A stretch of DNA of 64,000 nt, taken from the NCBI GenBank assembly GCA_905250025.1, contig CAJNOJ010000198.1, positions 62,001 through 126,000 on the forward strand, given 5' to 3'. Under the pieces are notes generated by a model that searched no databases, was not told the DNA's origin, and worked only from the letters and a program-made list of their open reading frames with translations. Source of the DNA: Adineta ricciae. Its lineage: Eukaryota; Rotifera; Eurotatoria; Adinetida; Adinetidae. How positions within the stretch are numbered: the first letter of the stretch is position 1; every line of letters starts with the position of its first letter. This document shows, piece after piece, positions 13,319 through 36,700 of the stretch. The translations under genes were made by a program, and so were the position numbers.

Positions 13319-14608
13319 TCAGGAATGAACAACCATTTTGTACATATCTTTGACAAGCTGTTCCATATGAGTTTGATCTCCGATTGTCTTTCGAAAGAAA
13401 ATCTCTTCGATCATCGACGATGAAATAAAACGAAATGAAGAAATCAATGTAATCAATTTCAAAAATCGATTATCTTCTAACGGATATTGTTTATTTATAT
13501 AAGCATTCAAGAGAATTTGTGCTTGATTTTGTAAATAATGAATTGTATGAAGATCGGTTAAGTTCGAATTGATCATTGTTTGACAATTGTTTAAATGTGT
13601 TTTGAAAAGAACTAAATTTTTCAAACAAATCAGTTCATTTCCATCGAGTTTCAACTGTTTGGCTTTGGCGAGAATTTCTTGAAAATTCGCAATATCAGAT
13701 TTATAAATTTCGCATTTCTCATTCGAATACATAAGGTCATTAGTATTCAGAGTAAATTGTTGTTCGATAGCGGTAAGAATGAATAGATCACGCCAACTTT
13801 CTTCCAAAAGACTAGTCTAAACAAGAAAATAGAATGTGAACCGTGAATTCGATCAAACATACTTGATCACAATTGGCTAGAGATGTAAATGCTGGTACTG
13901 TTTTAGTCCAATTGATCGCATTGAATAGAATCTTTGCTGCTGATTCATGATGATCAATCATTGGAAACTACGAACGAATGTGAATGAAAAAGAAACAAAT
14001 AAAATTATGGGTATCTACTTTCGGTAGCGATGTTGGATAAAGAGATATTGATTGACATCTTTGGAGGTGATACGCATTTATGATATCATTAGATTCTTTG
14101 AGTAAAAGCGCCATTTGTTTTCTTATTGTCGAGTTTCGTGGTCCGCGTTCATGTTGTACAGCTAACGGAGAGAAGAATTGAGAAATGATATGTCTTCCTG
14201 CAAAATAGATAAATACCTTCTTTGTTCATGCCGGCTTCCAGGCAACGTCTTAACCGACAGCTACGGCATTGATTTCGATGGGTTTTATCTACAGGACAAT
14301 CGCCTTGACCGTGATTTTTGCAGACATATTGACGATTTCTTCGGATGGATCGTTTGAAAAATCCGGCGCATCTAGTCAAAAGAATTTTTACTTGAAAAGT
14401 CGACGAAATTTCATCAGAGAATTACCCGTCGCACGCAAATATTCCATAATGTTTCCCAGATGAATTATCGTGACAGACTTTGCACGGAACGTCAGTCAAA
14501 ATTCGGCCTAGATTAACGAATTATATTCAATTACAGAGAATCAAACGAAATCTGATCTTCTTCTTTTCACTCACTTGATGTTGCACTCATTTGTCGATGT
14601 CCGTTCAT
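13319..14608 (-). CDS. NR2E-type nuclear receptor (tailless/TLX-like)
   Basis: Nuclear transcription factor. Six exons (14608-14575, 14507-14426, 14371-14217, 14161-14019, 13967-13863, 13816-13319) give about 338 aa. Residues about 20-85 form the two-zinc-finger DNA-binding domain: [24 protein letters not shown], then [19 protein letters not shown], continuing into the QHERGPR extension typical of NR2E. The ligand-binding domain carries the [11 protein letters not shown] signature and ends in a short activation helix (VKDMYKMV). The very short N-terminus and [11 protein letters not shown] start match TLX. An odd feature is His at position 24, where the family has Gly in the CKVCGD motif. The protein is about 45 aa shorter than vertebrate TLX, mainly in the hinge and LBD. 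A 1.6 kb gene-free stretch lies upstream, as is common for developmental regulators. Confidence 0.9.
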
Positions 14609-16244
14609 ATTCTAAAATGGATAGGTTACTTTTTTTCAAAAGAGAGAGAAAGAGAACAACAAAAAGTCGAGCTATTCATCGAATCAACACGCAGACGAAA
14701 TCAATTCATTGGATAGTATGCTCTATAAGCATATATTTCTCTCCTTCTCTCTTTCACCTTAATTCAATCACATAGAAAGAAGAAGAAGAAAAAAAATGGA
14801 ATCTTTCTCAATAAAACGTATGGACAATACTTCTAATTGGTCATTAAAGCATTCTCCTAATGATAGGTGAGACAATGGGATCACGACCTCGCCAATCGAT
14901 ATGTAAATACCGTCTTCAAGATCCTTGTGCTAAGCTTCATTCTCTCATTTAATGACGAAGGTATCTTTACGTTCTTTCCTCTCTCTCTCTTTCCCTCTTC
15001 TTCATGAATTGTCAATCGACAAATAGAAATAATTGCATACATCATATTGATGTCTGGTCTATTTGCAAAAGAAGAAATTACTATTCGATTATACTACTAG
15101 TTCCATTCAAACGATAATAAGCACAAACAAATAACACGAGCAAAGAAATGAAAAGAAGAGCAACAGTATTTGAATAACAAAGCGAACGATGTTGATCGTA
15201 CTTGATCAATATTATATGCGCGCCTATGACTTTATTAGTAGAATATATGTGCGAGGTAAATCAAGTAAAAACGCTGCTTTCTTGATTTATGTACATACAT
15301 ATATAAATACCTAAATATACATACACACGCATTGAAGACTGATGTCATTTATCCGTCACTAATCTCTGGACATGATCGAACAAGTTCAACAGTATAGATT
15401 TCCACAAGGTTGATCTTATGTCATAGGAAATTGTTTTTGTGTAAACAATTGAATCAGATTGATATATGCATGTCAATAGCGAATCAATAAAAGAAAAAGA
15501 AAGTTGAAATGTAACTGCTAAACATTTTCGTTGACCTATGAGTAGGATTTATTCATGAAATTCGACTTTATTGAAAAGAAAAGATGTATTGTTCCGTACA
15601 CGAGTAGTCGTTTTTTTTTTATTGAGATCATGTCTATCTGTGCGTGTGTCTATAATCCTTTGCATTGCTGAAGGAAGGTGAAAAAGAGAAATAATAACAA
15701 TGGTGATTTAGCATGGGAGGGTCAAATCAAGCATCCTTGATAAGTTTCATATATGTACATATATTGTTTAATGATCAAACATTCGAATTGTCAAATGACC
15801 ATATCATTTCTCAATTACCAACCGTGTCGATTTTGCCGCTTATTCATTATCAACAATGGTGGTGGATATAGTTTATATCTCGCAGGTGACCATCGTTTGA
15901 TCCTTGAAGCAACGAGAAAGAAAGAAAGAGAAAGGAAACATATATCTCAATTTACAAATTGTTTCACGCTATTGTCCTAATTGCAGGAGGGGGAGGAGGG
16001 TGCAATGTTGAAGTGATTGTCATTCAACATCTGTATACAGATATCATGCATTGTTAACGAACAAGAAATCATCTCTATGAAGTTTTATGCAACACACGCT
16101 CAATGAGCGACATCATCAGAAAGAAAAAGAATTCCATTCGGATGCAGCAGGAGATGAAGGAGGATGGTTGGCTAGCAACATAACATCTACAAGACAGTAA
16201 AACAAAAAAGTATTGCGAACACTATCGATATTTTGCTCCAAAAA
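14609..16244. other. gene-free stretch between divergent genes
   Basis: This 1.6 kb between the NR2E receptor (-) and RSPH4/6 (+) holds no open frame with coding character on either strand. It is AT-rich, with short pyrimidine and purine runs. It is unusually long for this window and probably carries regulatory DNA of the receptor gene. An X-box-like site lies at its right end. Confidence 0.6.
16167..16179. promoter_or_regulatory. X-box-like RFX site upstream of RSPH4/6
   Basis: GTTGGCTAGCAAC is an imperfect inverted repeat ending 65 bp before the RSPH4/6 start codon. One half (AGCAAC) fits the RFX half-site exactly and the other has one mismatch, with a single-base spacer. RFX factors control ciliary genes in animals, so both position and target are suitable. 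Confidence 0.45.
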
Positions 16245-18277
16245 ATGAGTACAGTTCAATATCAAAATCAGCATGGAGGTTAGCCGAGAAAATTTTCTTA
16301 AAGTGTTGATAATTTCATTTGTCTAGATCAAAGACAACATATTGGTACTCCCGATATTGGAGAGATGGAAAAGCGTTTCAATGATGCCAAGACGTATATT
16401 TTATCAACACAAAACAAGAAGGGTGTTAATCTGTAAATAGATATTTTTAATCGTTTATTCAAATATTTGCTTTAATCGATTTTAATTAGATACAATCATT
16501 TAGTGAAATGTGTTTCACGATTGTTAACCGAACAGCCACGTAAGGAGAAGAAAATCAACAATATGGAAAAGAGACAATTGAATTTTTCTAGGTGATAGTG
16601 CTATCATATTCGAAGATGTGAGCAAATCGGTTCGATCCGAAGATGAGACACATGTTGAAGATCAACCACCAGCAGATTCGGAACAGATCTTGAACGAAGA
16701 ACAGAAGCCACTATTTGAAGTAATTTTGTTTGGTTTTTCTTGAAAAATAATATGTTATGATCAATGAAAATGTGTAGAAAGGCGAAAATACTGATGATCT
16801 TGATGAAGATGCTTTACAATCGCCATTGCCACATATTCTCGAACAAGCGTATTATTTTGAACAAGCTGGTATTGGTCTTGGTCGTGATGAAACTTATCAG
16901 TAAGGAAATAATCGACGATATCAGTGAGCTTCAATCTACAACTGATGTTTCTTTTTAGAATATGGCTGGCATTGAAACAATTAGTAGATAAAAGTCAATT
17001 TGAAAAACTTCGTTTTTGGGGTAAAATATTGGGAACAGAGAAGAATTATTATGTCGCTGAAGTTGAACAGAATGCTGACGAAGAGGTCGAAGAAGAGGAA
17101 GAAAACGAAGAGAACAATGAAAATGATGAAAAAGATGCGGATGAAGATGAAGAAGGTGAAGGAGAAGAAGATCCTTTGCCAAAATCTGCTTACAAATCAC
17201 CACCAACTGTACCAAAAGAAGAACGTGGAACAGGCGTGAACAAGTACACCTATTATGTCTGCAATCGTCGTACGTATTATAGAAAAGAAGAGTTCAGGCG
17301 TAGGAGTTTCGATTTTGTATTGTTTAGCTGGAGCACCATGGGTTCGATTACCGACTGTGACACCAGCACAAATTTCTTTAGCTCGACAGATCAAAGTTTT
17401 CTTCACTGGAGATTTGACTCGAGAAATCAAGTCGTTTCCTGTCTATCCAGGAACAGAAAAGCATTATTTACGCGCACAAATTGCCCGAATCAGTGCAACA
17501 ACACAGGTATCACCCAATGGGCGATTTAAATTCTCCGAAGTAATGAAAAGCAAGCACTGACGAATTTGGTTTTCAGCTGTTTGATTTCATTTAGGAAGAG
17601 GAAGAGGAGGAGGAAGGTGGTCGACAAAACTATGAAGATAACGAAGACTTTACAGGTGCGCCATTATCAGAATTGATCGATGAGGAACTAAACGGATGGG
17701 TATGAGATAATTCACATATTCGTCTCTTGTCCAATTTAACATCGAATTTTTTATTTAGGTTCATCATGTTTTACACATTCTTCCTCAAGGCCGAACAAAA
17801 TGGTGGAATCCAAAAGAAGATGCTGAAGAAGAGGAGCAAGAAGAAGAGAACGAAGAGGAAGATGGTAAAGCCGAAGATCGAATTCAACCCGAACAAGGCC
17901 CACCACTCCTCACACCCATCGGTGCCGATGCTGAAATCCATCATACGAAAGCTTGGACAGCGAAAATCTCGTCAAATCTCATTCCACAGTATGCCTGTGC
18001 GTTTGTTCGATCAAATCTCTGGCCAGGTGCATATGCGTTTGCTCGTGGAACCATCTGGGAAAATATTTATATCGGTTATGGGCACAAATATTCAACGAGC
18101 GATTATCGACCGGAATTACCTCCCATACCAGCGAGTGAATACAATGATGGGCCAGAAATTACAGAAGCTGATGATCCAACAGCTGAAGACGAAGAAAAGG
18201 CGCGTCTGGCTGCTGAAAAACCTGAGGAAGAAGAGGAAGGCGAAGAAGAAGTCGAAAATGAAGATGAAGAAGATTAA
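16245..18277 (+). CDS. RSPH4A: radial spoke head protein 4/6
   Basis: Structural component of the radial spoke head of motile cilia, which passes signals from the central pair to the dynein arms. Nine exons (16245-16278, 16327-16432, 16490-16539, 16592-16719, 16778-16899, 16959-17269, 17328-17539, 17595-17699, 17759-18277) give about 528 aa. Strong family blocks are [98 protein letters not shown] and [11 protein letters not shown]. Acidic low-complexity runs occur in the centre and at the C-terminus, as in all RSPH4/6 proteins. The N-terminus is shorter than in vertebrates and close to algal RSP4/6 in length. The family symbol covers RSPH4A and RSPH6A, which this sequence cannot separate. An X-box-like element precedes the start. 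Confidence 0.92.
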
Positions 18278-18622: not shown

Positions 18623-19996
18623 ATGTCAATGGAGGAAAATCAAACGAGACGTGCATTGTTAATAGTCGATCTTCAACAAGATTTTGTATCTCCGAACGGA
18701 CCGTTCAAAGATAAATACGTCAAAATAGATCATATTGTTTCTCACTTAAACAATGTTCTACCGCGCTTTCGTGATTCGAATGGTATTGTTGTTTGGATCA
18801 AAGCTAATTATAAAAATGATCAAATCGAATTCAAATCTCTCGCTCGTCCAGAAGGTAAACAGTATGAGAATATTCCAATGAACGATACTTTTCTTTCGGG
18901 TACACATCGGTCATTTCCGCTATGTGTAATTGGAACAGATGGCGAACGTTTTCCGCCTGAAGTTATCTCTCTTATCAAGTCCGAAGAAGATTTTATCGTG
19001 ACAAAAACGTATTACTCAGCATTTACAAACACTAATCTTGTTGATATTTTGAAGAACGTGAGTGAAGTGCATATTTGTGGTCTAGTAACCAATGTTTGTG
19101 TTCAAGCAACGACAATCGATGCTTTTTTTCATGGTTACAAGGTTTTCGTTTGGATTGATTGCCTTGGATATCGCAATGAAGTTTCGCATCGAACGGCATT
19201 GAAAAAGATACGACGATGGTATGCAACAACGATCATGTCGAATCAATTCAATGATCAACAAGCGATTACTACTGACAGTGCTATTTTGAAGCCAGTCTTG
19301 TATTTTGTAAATGGATCTATACCTAGTTGGAGAGTGATGATGGCACTTTATGAAAAAGACATTGATTTTGAGGGCAAACGACTGGAGATCATGACCAAAC
19401 CAAAACAAACGCAATCGGTTGAATTTCTTGCTATCAATCCTCGTGGTTTAACTCCGACATTTGTTGATAAAGATGGTACAATCATTGCTGAATCGCTCGC
19501 TATTTTACATTATCTCGAAGAATACTACCCTTCTGCTCGATCGCTTCTGCCTGTGGAAAAAGCAAAACATGTCCAAGTGTTGCAACGCGTACAAGAATCT
19601 CAAAATCTAGTCGATATATATGAATCACTCGAAACTATTGTATTCGAAACACTTGAATATGAACAACCATCACATAAAAATTCAATTCTAGAAATACTGG
19701 AAAAGATCAATGAAGAACTGGCATTTTGGGAAATGTACTTGACAAAAAATACGTTCATTGCTTGTGATCAATTTACATTAGCTGATTGTGCATTTTATCC
19801 TGTTATTGCCTCTCTAATTCATCGAGGACTAGATATAAATATCTTTTCCAGATTAAAAGAGTACGTCAATATGATTAAAATGAAACCAGCTGCAATCAAC
19901 TCGCACCCATCTGACTGGACAGACAAAGATGAAAAGATCAATATTTTCAAAGTAGTTAATCAAATTATAATCGACTGTAATAATAAAGCGGTTTAA
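18623..19996 (+). CDS. isochorismatase-like hydrolase fused to glutathione S-transferase
   Basis: A single 457-aa frame with no intron joins two enzymes. Residues about 8-210 are an isochorismatase/nicotinamidase-like cysteine hydrolase with the full catalytic triad: Asp16 in LLIVDLQQDF, Lys128 in TKTYYSAF and Cys159 in GLVTNVCVQAT. The oxyanion-loop segment VIGTDGERFPPEV is also present. Residues about 222-457 are a complete cytosolic GST: a thioredoxin-fold half with GSIPSWRVMMAL (a zeta/omega-like active-site region), the cis-proline segment LTPTFVD and the glutathione-binding ESLAILHYLEEYYP, followed by the all-helical half with FTLADCAFYP. No signal peptide is present, so it is probably cytosolic. 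The substrate is unknown. The start at 18623 is the first ATG; another lies two codons later. The lack of introns in an intron-dense window suggests acquisition by transfer or retroposition. Confidence 0.93.
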   Translation: MSMEENQTRRALLIVDLQQDFVSPNGPFKDKYVKIDHIVSHLNNVLPRFRDSNGIVVWIKANYKNDQIEFKSLARPEGKQYENIPMNDTFLSGTHRSFPLCVIGTDGERFPPEVISLIKSEEDFIVTKTYYSAFTNTNLVDILKNVSEVHICGLVTNVCVQATTIDAFFHGYKVFVWIDCLGYRNEVSHRTALKKIRRWYATTIMSNQFNDQQAITTDSAILKPVLYFVNGSIPSWRVMMALYEKDIDFEGKRLEIMTKPKQTQSVEFLAINPRGLTPTFVDKDGTIIAESLAILHYLEEYYPSARSLLPVEKAKHVQVLQRVQESQNLVDIYESLETIVFETLEYEQPSHKNSILEILEKINEELAFWEMYLTKNTFIACDQFTLADCAFYPVIASLIHRGLDINIFSRLKEYVNMIKMKPAAINSHPSDWTDKDEKINIFKVVNQIIIDCNNKAV

Positions 19997-20054: not shown

Positions 20055-21197
20055 CTATGGAATTAATCTTGGATCACCGCAAACTTTGCTCATCGGATGA
20101 TTTAAATAAGCAAGAGCCATCATATCTTCTTGATCGAGTTCAAAATCGAATATCGACATATTTTCCATCATATGAGTTGGATCGCGAGTACGCGGATTAA
20201 CAACAATACCTTGTTGCCAATGCCAGCGAAGTACTACTTGAGCTGAGGTTTTGCCATGTTTAGCTGCGATTGTAACTACGCGTGGATGTTTACGTAGATC
20301 AGGTATAGGATTCCAAGTCGGGCCAAGTGTTAATGCATGATCAGGACAGCCAACGGGCGAGTAACTGTTGAATGTAATGTTATGTTTCTGACAAAAATCA
20401 ACAAGTTCATCTTCGTGCCAGTAGGGATGAAATTCAACCTGAATCGAAGGAAATTTTATCAGCAGAAAAGAATATTTGAAGGAGAGTTTACTTGATTAAC
20501 ACTTGGACGAGTAGAATTTAAGTCAAAAATTTCTAACAAATGATTTACTTCATAATTACTAACACCAATAGCACGCACCTAGACGATAAAAAACCGACAA
20601 GTGTTAACATGAATAAATAGAAGACCTTACTTGTTGTAGTTTGAATATAGTTTCTAATGCTCGCCATGTTTCGATGCGACAGTCTGTCCAAGTAGCCTTT
20701 CCTTGTTTACAAGGCGGAATTGGTTTATCAGATTTACCCGGCTGAGCACCAGGCCAATGGATAAGTAGAAGATCAACATAAGTAGTTTGTAAAGACTTCA
20801 GTATGTCCGTAAATTTCGAAAGTGTTTGTTCATACCCAGCAGGATCTACTTTGGATGTAATGAATATCTCTAAACGAGGTATGCCGCTTGCTACCCAACC
20901 AGTACCAACACCATCGCACGAAGCATAATCGTCTGAACTATCAATACGCCGACCACCCATCTTTAACCATGCTACAGTAGCGTTATGACCTTGTTCAGGT
21001 CCCCAATATTCTCCACCTGATCCATTCGCCGAACCATAACCTCCAGTGCCCAGACCAACTACCGGCATGAGTACTTCACCGTGAACGGCATTCATTAACC
21101 GAACAGTTGGCTGTTGTTTAATAGATTTGATTTCAGAAGTAGCATGCAGCTTGGAAATAAGTAATAATCCAGCAAAGAAGAGATATTGAAAACACAT
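20055..21197 (-). CDS. aldo-keto reductase with signal peptide
   Basis: NAD(P)H-dependent carbonyl reductase of the AKR superfamily, about 345 aa in three exons (21197-20631, 20578-20492, 20438-20055). The full catalytic tetrad is visible: Asp86 (GGRRIDSSDDY), Tyr91, Lys116 (IFITSKVD) and His147 (DLLLIHWPG). Further AKR landmarks are RAIGVSNYE, VNQVEFHPYW, NSYSPVG and the cofactor-binding NPRTRDP. The N-terminus (FQYLFFAGLLLISKLHA) reads as a signal peptide ending near residue 20. That is unusual because most AKRs are cytosolic, so this one may enter the ER, be secreted, or be membrane-anchored. Its stop lies 58 bp from that of the isochorismatase-GST gene, tail to tail. The substrate cannot be inferred. 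Confidence 0.9.
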
Positions 21198-33768: not shown

Positions 33769-36700
33769 TTAATTAGGTGATAAGAGAATTTCTTTGCAAT
33801 TTGATGCTAATTGTCGAACAAGATCATTTTCATTTGTTTGACAGTTGGTTAGTGATTGTTCGGTTTGTTTTTTCACATCATCAGAAAGTTTAGACGCGAC
33901 AGCTGTTAAACAATTCTTCAATGCCAGTAAATATGTTTCTCTAGAAATAATAACGAATTAGGGAGAGAGAGGTACAGTCACTGAATTACTTGAAAGATGG
34001 ATCGTCGTTCACTTTCAGTCCATTAAGTAGCTCAACGAAGATCGGATCGATTCGGACATGAATCTGACTGAGTAATCCGAGAGCGTTACCAGCTTTAATA
34101 CGAACTTGACGTGCAGGATCATTGAGACCTTTGAGAAGTGTTGGTTGAAGTTGAGGTAAAAATGGTTTTAATTGAACACCAACCTGCGAAATGTTTCCAT
34201 AGGATCTGTTGAATAAAATAATGAAAAAATGTTTTACTTACCTTTGCCATAAATGTGCTCAAAGTTTCGAGGATAGCCACTTTGATATCGGTACTAAATC
34301 GTTCACCTAAGACACGAATCAATGGGCCTGTGACATTCATAATGGATGATTTCAACGCTTCGGCACTATGAGGAGAAAAAAAAACAATTTTCCGTCTTCG
34401 TTGAGAAAACAAACAAAATCGTATTTTCTGCTGTGTCATTACTCAGATAAATTGATCGCTTCGTTCAAACCATTAGCACCTGATTCACGTAATTCGGGTG
34501 GACCATTAAGAATGCACTCTTTGTATATAGGCAAAATACATCCAATACCCTGAACAAATCAACGGTATAATCTCACTATTCGATTTACGCTTTGAATCGA
34601 ACCTTTTTCGGTATACATAAACCAACGAGTCGACCACGTTCTCGACCACTCGACTGAGCTGTACGTAATGCTTGTCGAACGACTGGTAGACGTTTTTGTA
34701 GTTCTAATGGATCCAAATCCTAAAACCAACATTCTCCAATTCAGTTTCGAAAAGCTCACTGATATCGTACTTTGATGATAACATCCACGCAATCCCATGC
34801 AGTGTTCAATATTTGTTCATTTTCATCATTTAATAAATTAATAGCAATGCGGAGAAGATCATCGATATGCTCTTGGTGTGTACCTTTCGATCCTTTGCAG
34901 AATGATAATAATAAGCTGATAGTCACCAGTCGAACATTTGCTTTGTTCGAGCGTGAAAAATCTTGTAATTCACGAATGATTATGAGGATACCGTCATTGT
35001 CCGAGACCTAAATAGACAATATAATAATATCAATACAAAATGAAGACCTTTATGTCAACAGACCGATGACATTAATTGTTCAGCATAGTAGATATGTTTT
35101 TGCCGGGCATCGGCATCTTTCTCTTCAGCAATGTGTGTGACCACTGCTTGAATAATACGGTTCAAATGGCGTGCTAGACCTTCACCGGCAACTAATGTTA
35201 AACTAGCTAATGCCTTTATATCGACTGGTGGTTGAATAAGATGAGGAACAAGGTACGGTAGAACGACACGTGCTTTTAATTGCATGATACGTTGTAACGC
35301 GTCGAGAGCATAGTCACGTTCAGTCTCTTCAGTCTCTTCATCGTCTGGTGTTTTGGCTGTTGTCGCTGAGGTACCATTTGGTGCAGGATCCTTTTGCATA
35401 ACATTTAATAAATATGGTAGGATTTCATCCAATGCTTGAGTACCAATACTCGAATGAAGATTCTCAAAAGTTTTCGCAGCTGATTGACGAACTTCAAGTA
35501 ATGGATCGAGTAGAGCCCGTCGTACGGTTGGGATAATTGTACTTGAAAAAGCAATGATCTTAAGGAGGAAACGAACATTTGAATAATTAAATGTCAGATA
35601 AAGATAGAGCCTTACGTATTCTCGACTGCACGCTGTCATTATTTCACTGAGACCAATACAAACACCTTGACGTTGGTCACTCTGTGTTGAATCGAGACCT
35701 TTTTCGAGAATGGGAATGATTTCGGGTAAGACCCGTTCGCCTAATTTTCTAACCAAATCGCCCAACGTTCTTGCCGCAATCTAGATCAAACAAAAAAAAC
35801 GAACTATGAGCGAGTCAATTGACTGTCAGTTTTACATACTTGTCTCTTGTCAAAATTGGCACTTGCCAAACAACCCAATAAAAGTGTAAATAATGTGTGT
35901 AGAATTTCTCGTAATGTGCGTGGTGTATTCGATATAATCGTTTTCCATACGTGTAAAGCAGATTGTCGTACTGTGACAGCAATATCGGATCGACCCATAT
36001 AAAGACCTATTGGATTTCATACGTTTTTAAGAGGAAAAATAGATCACTACTTCAGATCTTTACCTGACAATACTCTGTCACGTCGTTCCCGGCTTAACGC
36101 ATGCGTAATAGATTGTAAGCCATATTCTGTACCAAAGTTATCGTCGTCATCGACACTTTCAGTTGTCGCTTTGCCAGTAACACCCGAAACTTTGAATAGA
36201 AGCTCTCCCAATAATAATACTGAACTGTAACGTATACGCCAGTTATCATCGAATAGACCTTGTTCGAGTTCTGGTACGAATAAGGATATAGCTGTTTCGG
36301 CATAACTGTTGATGATACGTTGACCAGCTTTCAATGCAGTATCACGAACGAATTCTGTTTCATCTGCTAAACCCTAAGGAAAAGAAACAAAACAAAACAG
36401 TGTCGTTATTCATTTGAGAATGTTAGAAATTTACTTTTAATATTGGTGGAATAATTTTGCCGACATATGGAACAAAGTTTTCTCCAAAACTTATCGGCAA
36501 ATAGATAAACATCATCATATAACCATCGCGAACATGTGCAGCCAGATCCATTTGCTGCGATCGATCGATGATTTCTTTCATTGATTTTTCAAGACGGTCA
36601 GCGCCGAGACCAAATATAACTTCACTTAAACCTTGAGCAGCACCAGAACGATCAACTGGACTGGATTCCAAAACCAAATGTTCCATAAGCCATGGAACGA

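Follow-up and report, generated by a model that had tools for sequence, protein, structure and literature searches.

The gene at positions 18623–19996 of the window (the 64,000-nucleotide stretch of Adineta ricciae DNA analysed here) encodes, as judged by sequence, a two-enzyme protein in which an active-site-complete cysteine hydrolase of the isochorismatase type is connected through a short linker to a glutathione S-transferase (GST) of apparent rho type, and the best prokaryotic relatives found in sequence searches for both halves are from one rare gene set of Myxococcota. In that set, the isochorismatase domain is fused to an AlkB-type 2-oxoglutarate/Fe(II) dioxygenase domain and, in two genomes, the fusion gene overlaps a separate GST gene. 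We put the probability at roughly 45% that the rotifer fusion supplies the downstream steps of an AlkB-linked pathway, whose ancestry would be common with the Myxococcota set, most simply through horizontal acquisition.

The gene is intronless, lies on the forward strand, and comprises 457 codons plus a stop. Its hydrolase domain (residues 11–204; 18653–19234) scores 107.1 bits against PF00857, for which the cut-off is 27. The Asp-Lys-Cys catalytic triad, a feature of the PF00857 family, is located at Asp16 (18668–18670), Lys128 (19004–19006), and Cys159 (19097–19099), all three of which are invariant in a five-row alignment. An 18-residue linker follows (residues 205–222; 19235–19288), with pLDDT values below 50 at residues 209–222 of the full-length structure model; this model reaches a pLDDT of 57 overall and is poor in the GST half, and the domain arrangement was not drawn from it. 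Residues 226–422 (19298–19888) then form a rho-class-like GST that belongs to the GST superfamily through its N-terminal thioredoxin-like and C-terminal helical domains, and that contains Ser232/Ser235, Pro278, and Glu290-Ser291, which we take to be functional residues. The original prediction of a real single-frame fusion, uniting a hydrolase with an intact triad and a full two-domain GST, is thereby borne out, and the same frame recurs on a second contig (C14:844661–846028), where the same fusion is present as an unbroken copy, with 94.7% DNA identity and 93% protein identity. This copy is regarded as an allele because the flanking sequence of C14 is collinear with the window at 93–95% identity (three stretches, ~30 kb). 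Neither a stop nor an intron separates the two halves on either allele, and dN/dS between the two copies is 0.257 over the whole gene (hydrolase half, 0.282; GST half, 0.241), which indicates that both halves are under constraint and that the gene is maintained.

Neither the fusion nor any of the bacterial and AlkB proteins tested reaches an NCBIfam equivalog cut-off. Scores of the hydrolase half lie below the cut-offs for nicotinamidase/pyrazinamidase (NF008623; 32.7 bits, cut-off 174), the biuret hydrolase BiuH (40.5 bits, cut-off 370), and the ureidoacrylate amidohydrolase RutB (37.7 bits, cut-off 378). The nicotinamidase/pyrazinamidase structures 1ilw and 1im5, like PF00857 amidases in general, share the sequence family and the Asp-Lys-Cys triad with the hydrolase half, but match it at only 55 bits. 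In the weak alignment with 1ilw, the motif RDWH faces KANY, so that Ala and Tyr occupy two positions that in 1ilw are presumably metal ligands of the Asp/His/His set, the third position lying outside the alignment. The GST half scores 78.5 bits against the maleylacetoacetate isomerase (zeta GST) family TIGR01262, below its cut-off of 171, and stands apart from the zeta structure 1fw1 in the tree. A clam, Laternula elliptica, has a rho-class GST of solved structure (PDB 3qav) that is 31–32% identical and scores 119 bits to the rotifer protein, from which it differs in being a stand-alone enzyme.

The Myxococcota gene set takes two forms. At two loci (L136 and L137), single genes encode an isochorismatase domain followed by an AlkB-type 2OG-Fe(II) domain (PF13532). 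At two others (L135 and L160), an isochorismatase-AlkB gene precedes a GST gene with an overlap of 4 bases; in L135 the GTG start of the GST gene overlaps the stop codon (GTGA, 1498–1501), and in L160 the overlap reads ATGA. The bacterial fusions thus carry a C-terminal AlkB domain where the rotifer protein has its GST, the site of the rotifer linker corresponding to the site of the AlkB domain, and the GST of L135 and L160 is encoded by a separate gene whereas that of the rotifer is fused to the hydrolase. The AlkB domains of L135 and L160 are 84% identical and their genomes (G641 and G730) are close relatives, and the adjacency of the isochorismatase-AlkB and GST genes is therefore counted as one evolutionary case. 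No GST gene is found in the ~1.5 kb downstream of L137, and none was seen near L136, where the contig ends ~0.8 kb after the gene. A search with the isochorismatase-AlkB fusions recovered only six of 377 Myxococcota genomes, a sample rather than an exhaustive set, at E ≤ 1e-30: the four loci above, a locus (L161) whose AlkB has no hydrolase half recognised by phmmer and whose match to the fusion profile starts only at position 144, and a genome (G728) that matches weakly over the AlkB part. In 398 Pseudomonadota and 272 Acidobacteriota genomes, nothing matched an AlkB alignment at E ≤ 1e-25, searches that had no positive control and whose emptiness proves nothing. The catalytic residues vary within the set. 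Asp16 and Lys128 are kept in the three fusions checked, and the hydrolase halves of L135 and L160 retain the catalytic Cys, but at the position of Cys159 L136 has Gly and L137 has Ser, and hydrolysis is therefore not conserved across the family.

Both halves of the rotifer protein are related to this set, although identities to the bacterial proteins are only ~29–36% overall. The hydrolase half scores 112 bits against L136 and 99 against L137 (32–34% identity), while the next of 112 domain sequences reaches 72 bits; conversely, L136 and L137 each match the rotifer pair best once their match to one another is set aside. An insert of ~20 residues is common to the rotifer protein, L136, and L137, and is absent from the other seven aligned rows. 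The hydrolase halves of L135 (29% identity) and L160 match poorly, at 51 and 59 bits, where several unrelated loci reach ~72 bits, and the rotifer protein is not among their six best matches. L136 and L137 are accordingly the closest hydrolase relatives, and only the trees unite all four. In a tree of 53 of the 112 hydrolase sequences, prepared by removing two IMG/VR rows and the long-branch rows and thinning the remainder by about half, the rotifer pair and the four bacterial fusion halves form a clade at 94/86, a bootstrap of 94 being below the starred level; in a quick tree of 103 rows, the clade has an SH-aLRT of 86 and includes the two IMG/VR rows. For the GST half, the pattern is reversed. 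It scores 149 bits against L135 and 147 against L160, with 35–36% identity and an alignment that extends to near the C-terminus, while the next of 25 GSTs scores 72 bits, and the rotifer pair is again the best match of the two bacterial GSTs after each other. The GST tree, which has 30 rows and samples one rho sequence and few classes, groups the rotifer pair with L135 and L160 at 93/89 and places 3qav as the sister of this clade (97/92). With the best scores split between the two pairs, the hydrolase points to L136 and L137 and the GST to L135 and L160, inside one family; the separate domain trees that the original prediction had called for thus place both halves with the Myxococcota set.

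The third module is also present in the rotifer, though neither in the fusion frame nor adjoining it, its genes being located on other contigs. Two places in the rotifer genome (C91:32689–33507 and C119:92269–93087) match the AlkB half of L136 with 45–46% identity and 214–218 bits, whereas the next AlkB-like places reach at most 100 bits. The C91 copy, the one that was read, is an intact, intronless, stand-alone frame of 308 codons (L147:330–1256). It scores 262 bits against L137, 216 against L136, and ~153–161 against L135, L160, and L161, and it is 39–49% identical to these five bacterial AlkBs, which are themselves 38–51% identical to one another apart from the 84% between L135 and L160. 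The protein has a PF13532 core and keeps the HxD...H and R...R motifs, which we take to be the iron and 2-oxoglutarate ligands. It has the core and both motifs in common with ALKBH2 and ALKBH3, but differs from them in being of a bacterial type with a YRHP.D motif, and among solved structures only ALKBH2/3 were found, at no more than 46 bits (ALKBH2, 46). Plasmid matches reach 75 bits at most among the eight listed of 22 records. A further AlkB copy of the same type occurs as two adjacent pieces (C16:675011–675903; 43% and 49% identity), separated by an intron or reflecting decay. According to the excerpted text of a survey of bdelloid repair genes, the direct-reversal genes of A. vaga include ALKBH1 and MGMT, and four repair genes were acquired by horizontal transfer (Fpg, AlkD, UVDE, and LigK); the C91 type of AlkB is not among the AlkB/ALKBH genes given there (PMC6264785).

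We infer that the three modules would act in one pathway, divided in the rotifer between a separate, intronless AlkB gene and a fusion of the other two. The AlkB dioxygenase may oxidise a modified nucleobase or related adduct, its presumed substrate, and release a reactive carbonyl or hydroxylated fragment; with glutathione bound, the GST half would capture or isomerise the electrophile produced by the AlkB step; and the cysteine hydrolase would cleave a C–N bond (amide or ureide-like) of the product via an acyl intermediate on Cys159. A more ambitious reading, unlikely as it stands, is that AlkB, GST, and cysteine hydrolase would act in sequence in an undescribed pathway for nucleic-acid or nucleotide damage that passed from a few myxobacteria to a desiccation-tolerant animal, in which two of the enzymes were then fused. 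Among the best-ranked literature matches, the titles and opening lines of abstracts contain no description of an isochorismatase-GST or isochorismatase-AlkB fusion. Excerpts of one study count 65 GST genes and 49 2OG-Fe(II) oxygenase genes in A. vaga and report that 2OG-Fe(II) oxygenase genes are over-expressed in bdelloids after rehydration and radiation (PMC10809525). The fusion and the C91/C119 AlkB would provide a concrete gene pair for bdelloid damage tolerance, and the set of AlkB, GST, and hydrolase genes a first lead to the purpose of pairing a hydrolase with a transferase.

Several observations speak against the AlkB-linked pathway: the rotifer AlkB and the fusion are on different contigs, no GST was seen near L136 and L137, which hold the best relatives of the hydrolase, the adjacency of the GST gene represents one evolutionary case, and the catalytic Cys is replaced in L136 and L137. 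These last replacements, because of which the chemistry may differ between lineages, would also fit a detoxification fusion of general scope, acting on xenobiotics or metabolites and functionally unrelated to AlkB, in which glutathione conjugation and hydrolysis of an amide or vinyl ether are combined in one protein. Such an enzyme would agree with two active sites that look complete, with the many GST genes of bdelloids (65 in the excerpts on A. vaga; PMC10809525), and with the lack of linkage between the AlkB and fusion genes. It is nonetheless fairly unlikely, since a single rare family with AlkB contains the best prokaryotic relatives found for both halves and AlkB of the same type occurs in the rotifer; the one-protein detoxification pathway originally proposed now looks less likely than a protein that supplies two of the three modules of an AlkB-linked pathway. 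The loss of the Cys in L136 and L137, together with L161, in which no hydrolase half is recognised by phmmer and the profile matches from position 144 on, would also be expected if the hydrolase half were a structural or binding domain on a working GST rather than an enzyme. This explanation is improbable, as the Cys persists in both rotifer alleles and in L135 and L160, the two with a linked GST, and the half evolves at a dN/dS of 0.28. It is highly improbable that the gene is an artefact, whether a decayed copy or two separate genes taken for one, when the halves are joined by a linker of 18 residues with no stop or intron on either allele and are both under selection.

The ancestry of the AlkB-linked set might also be sought in eukaryotes, either in a eukaryotic donor or in an old eukaryotic gene that combined isochorismatase, AlkB, and GST, with the Myxococcota having obtained the combination independently or from eukaryotes. 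The rarity of the AlkB-containing family in bacteria (6 of 377 Myxococcota and none of 398 Pseudomonadota or 272 Acidobacteriota, the empty searches being those run with no positive control) is consistent with this origin, as are the position of an animal rho-class GST (3qav, 119 bits) as sister in the GST tree and the fungal or bacterial best hits of some A. vaga 2OG oxygenases mentioned in the same excerpts (PMC10809525). A weak match of the fusion protein to the Pfam domain Thiored_Isochorism (PF24470; 17.3 bits, cut-off 35) could point the same way; the domain also stays below its cut-off in the rotifer's own genome and was found in 0 of 299 Pseudomonadota, an empty result that does not prove absence. 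Nothing positive for a eukaryotic source was seen among the eukaryotic proteins compared, which were those of the PDB, and we consider this origin doubtful.

Relatives of the fusion were sought in prokaryotes, plasmids, phages, and IMG/VR, with the PDB as the eukaryotic protein set. A GTDB scan with an isochorismatase alignment yielded at least 80 loci whose best segments are 23–40% identical, and none of the 80 among the loci listed has a GST open reading frame beside it (frames of at least 100 aa, flanks of up to 1.5 kb). With the whole protein as query, matches at E ≤ 1e-12 occurred in 10 of 398 Pseudomonadota genomes and 13 of 235 Myxococcota genomes, with up to four and up to seven candidates scored per genome, respectively; the Myxococcota search is the one that brought out L135, L136, and L137. 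No unbroken isochorismatase-GST frame was found in these 398 and 235 genomes or at the GTDB loci; one pseudomonadotal match (G234) spans residues 159–424 only by crossing four stops. Of 171 plasmid records that matched the fusion protein, none did so with 80% coverage, and a prokaryotic isochorismatase-GST fusion as direct donor was set aside for want of any example among the GTDB, Pseudomonadota, Myxococcota, and plasmid matches. The expectation that the nearest relatives would be fused non-metazoan proteins was not borne out for an isochorismatase-GST fusion in the prokaryotes searched, the relatives there instead being isochorismatase-AlkB fusions that in two genomes have an overlapping GST gene; the broader proposal of an acquired fusion gains from the linkage of its nearest prokaryotic relatives in those two genomes, but none of these is itself an isochorismatase-GST fusion. 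Whole-protein, GST, and AlkB queries found no relative in IMG/VR, where nine loci matched the isochorismatase alignment at 20–28% identity, and seven phage records each matched one half; a viral or phage origin was rejected on these results. A defence system was likewise dismissed, as PADLOC gave no match for the fusion protein or the L160 GST, and its CARF_2OG model matched weakly, at 22 and 34 bits, on two AlkB proteins only.

At its locus, the fusion gene is flanked upstream by the last exon of a radial spokehead-like gene (17759–18277, forward strand; PF04712, 189 bits) and downstream by an aldo-keto reductase gene on the reverse strand (20067–21197), which is split by short introns with recognisable borders and matches PF00248 in two exon pieces. 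Contig C240 is collinear with window positions 14202–17901 (~65–82% identity) up to the radial spokehead gene and then diverges, and contig C73 carries the last exon of that gene. No fusion follows the radial spokehead relative on either contig in the stretches read, that of C240 including a run of N, so a homoeologous copy was rejected there and the gene therefore seems to be specific to one of two ancient sub-genomes, through gain or loss. In the comparison of C240 with the window, the break in synteny between the sub-genomes falls at the fusion locus. Local repeats and base composition around the gene are unremarkable, and the window contains no matches to a telomere-type repeat or to Rfam.

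The original prediction had also taken the absence of introns as a sign of acquisition or retroposition. Intron absence carries little weight, because 17 of the 34 places in the rotifer genome that match PF00857 are likewise single-frame (at least 145 of 175 domain positions). Retroposition is unsupported because the genome contains no close paralog of either half: the best own-genome relatives of either half are ~30% identical, no close or intron-bearing parent was found there, and the sequence inspected 3' of the stop codon has no A-rich tail, so that retroposition was abandoned as an explanation. Elsewhere in the genome, two similar isochorismatase genes lie close together on one contig (C276:30894–31457 and 35416–35979; L001 and L002). 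The first of these groups in the quick tree with genes of Polyangiaceae, from a genome that also has two adjacent isochorismatase genes (L102), and the C276 genes are, on their sequences, another candidate for horizontal acquisition.
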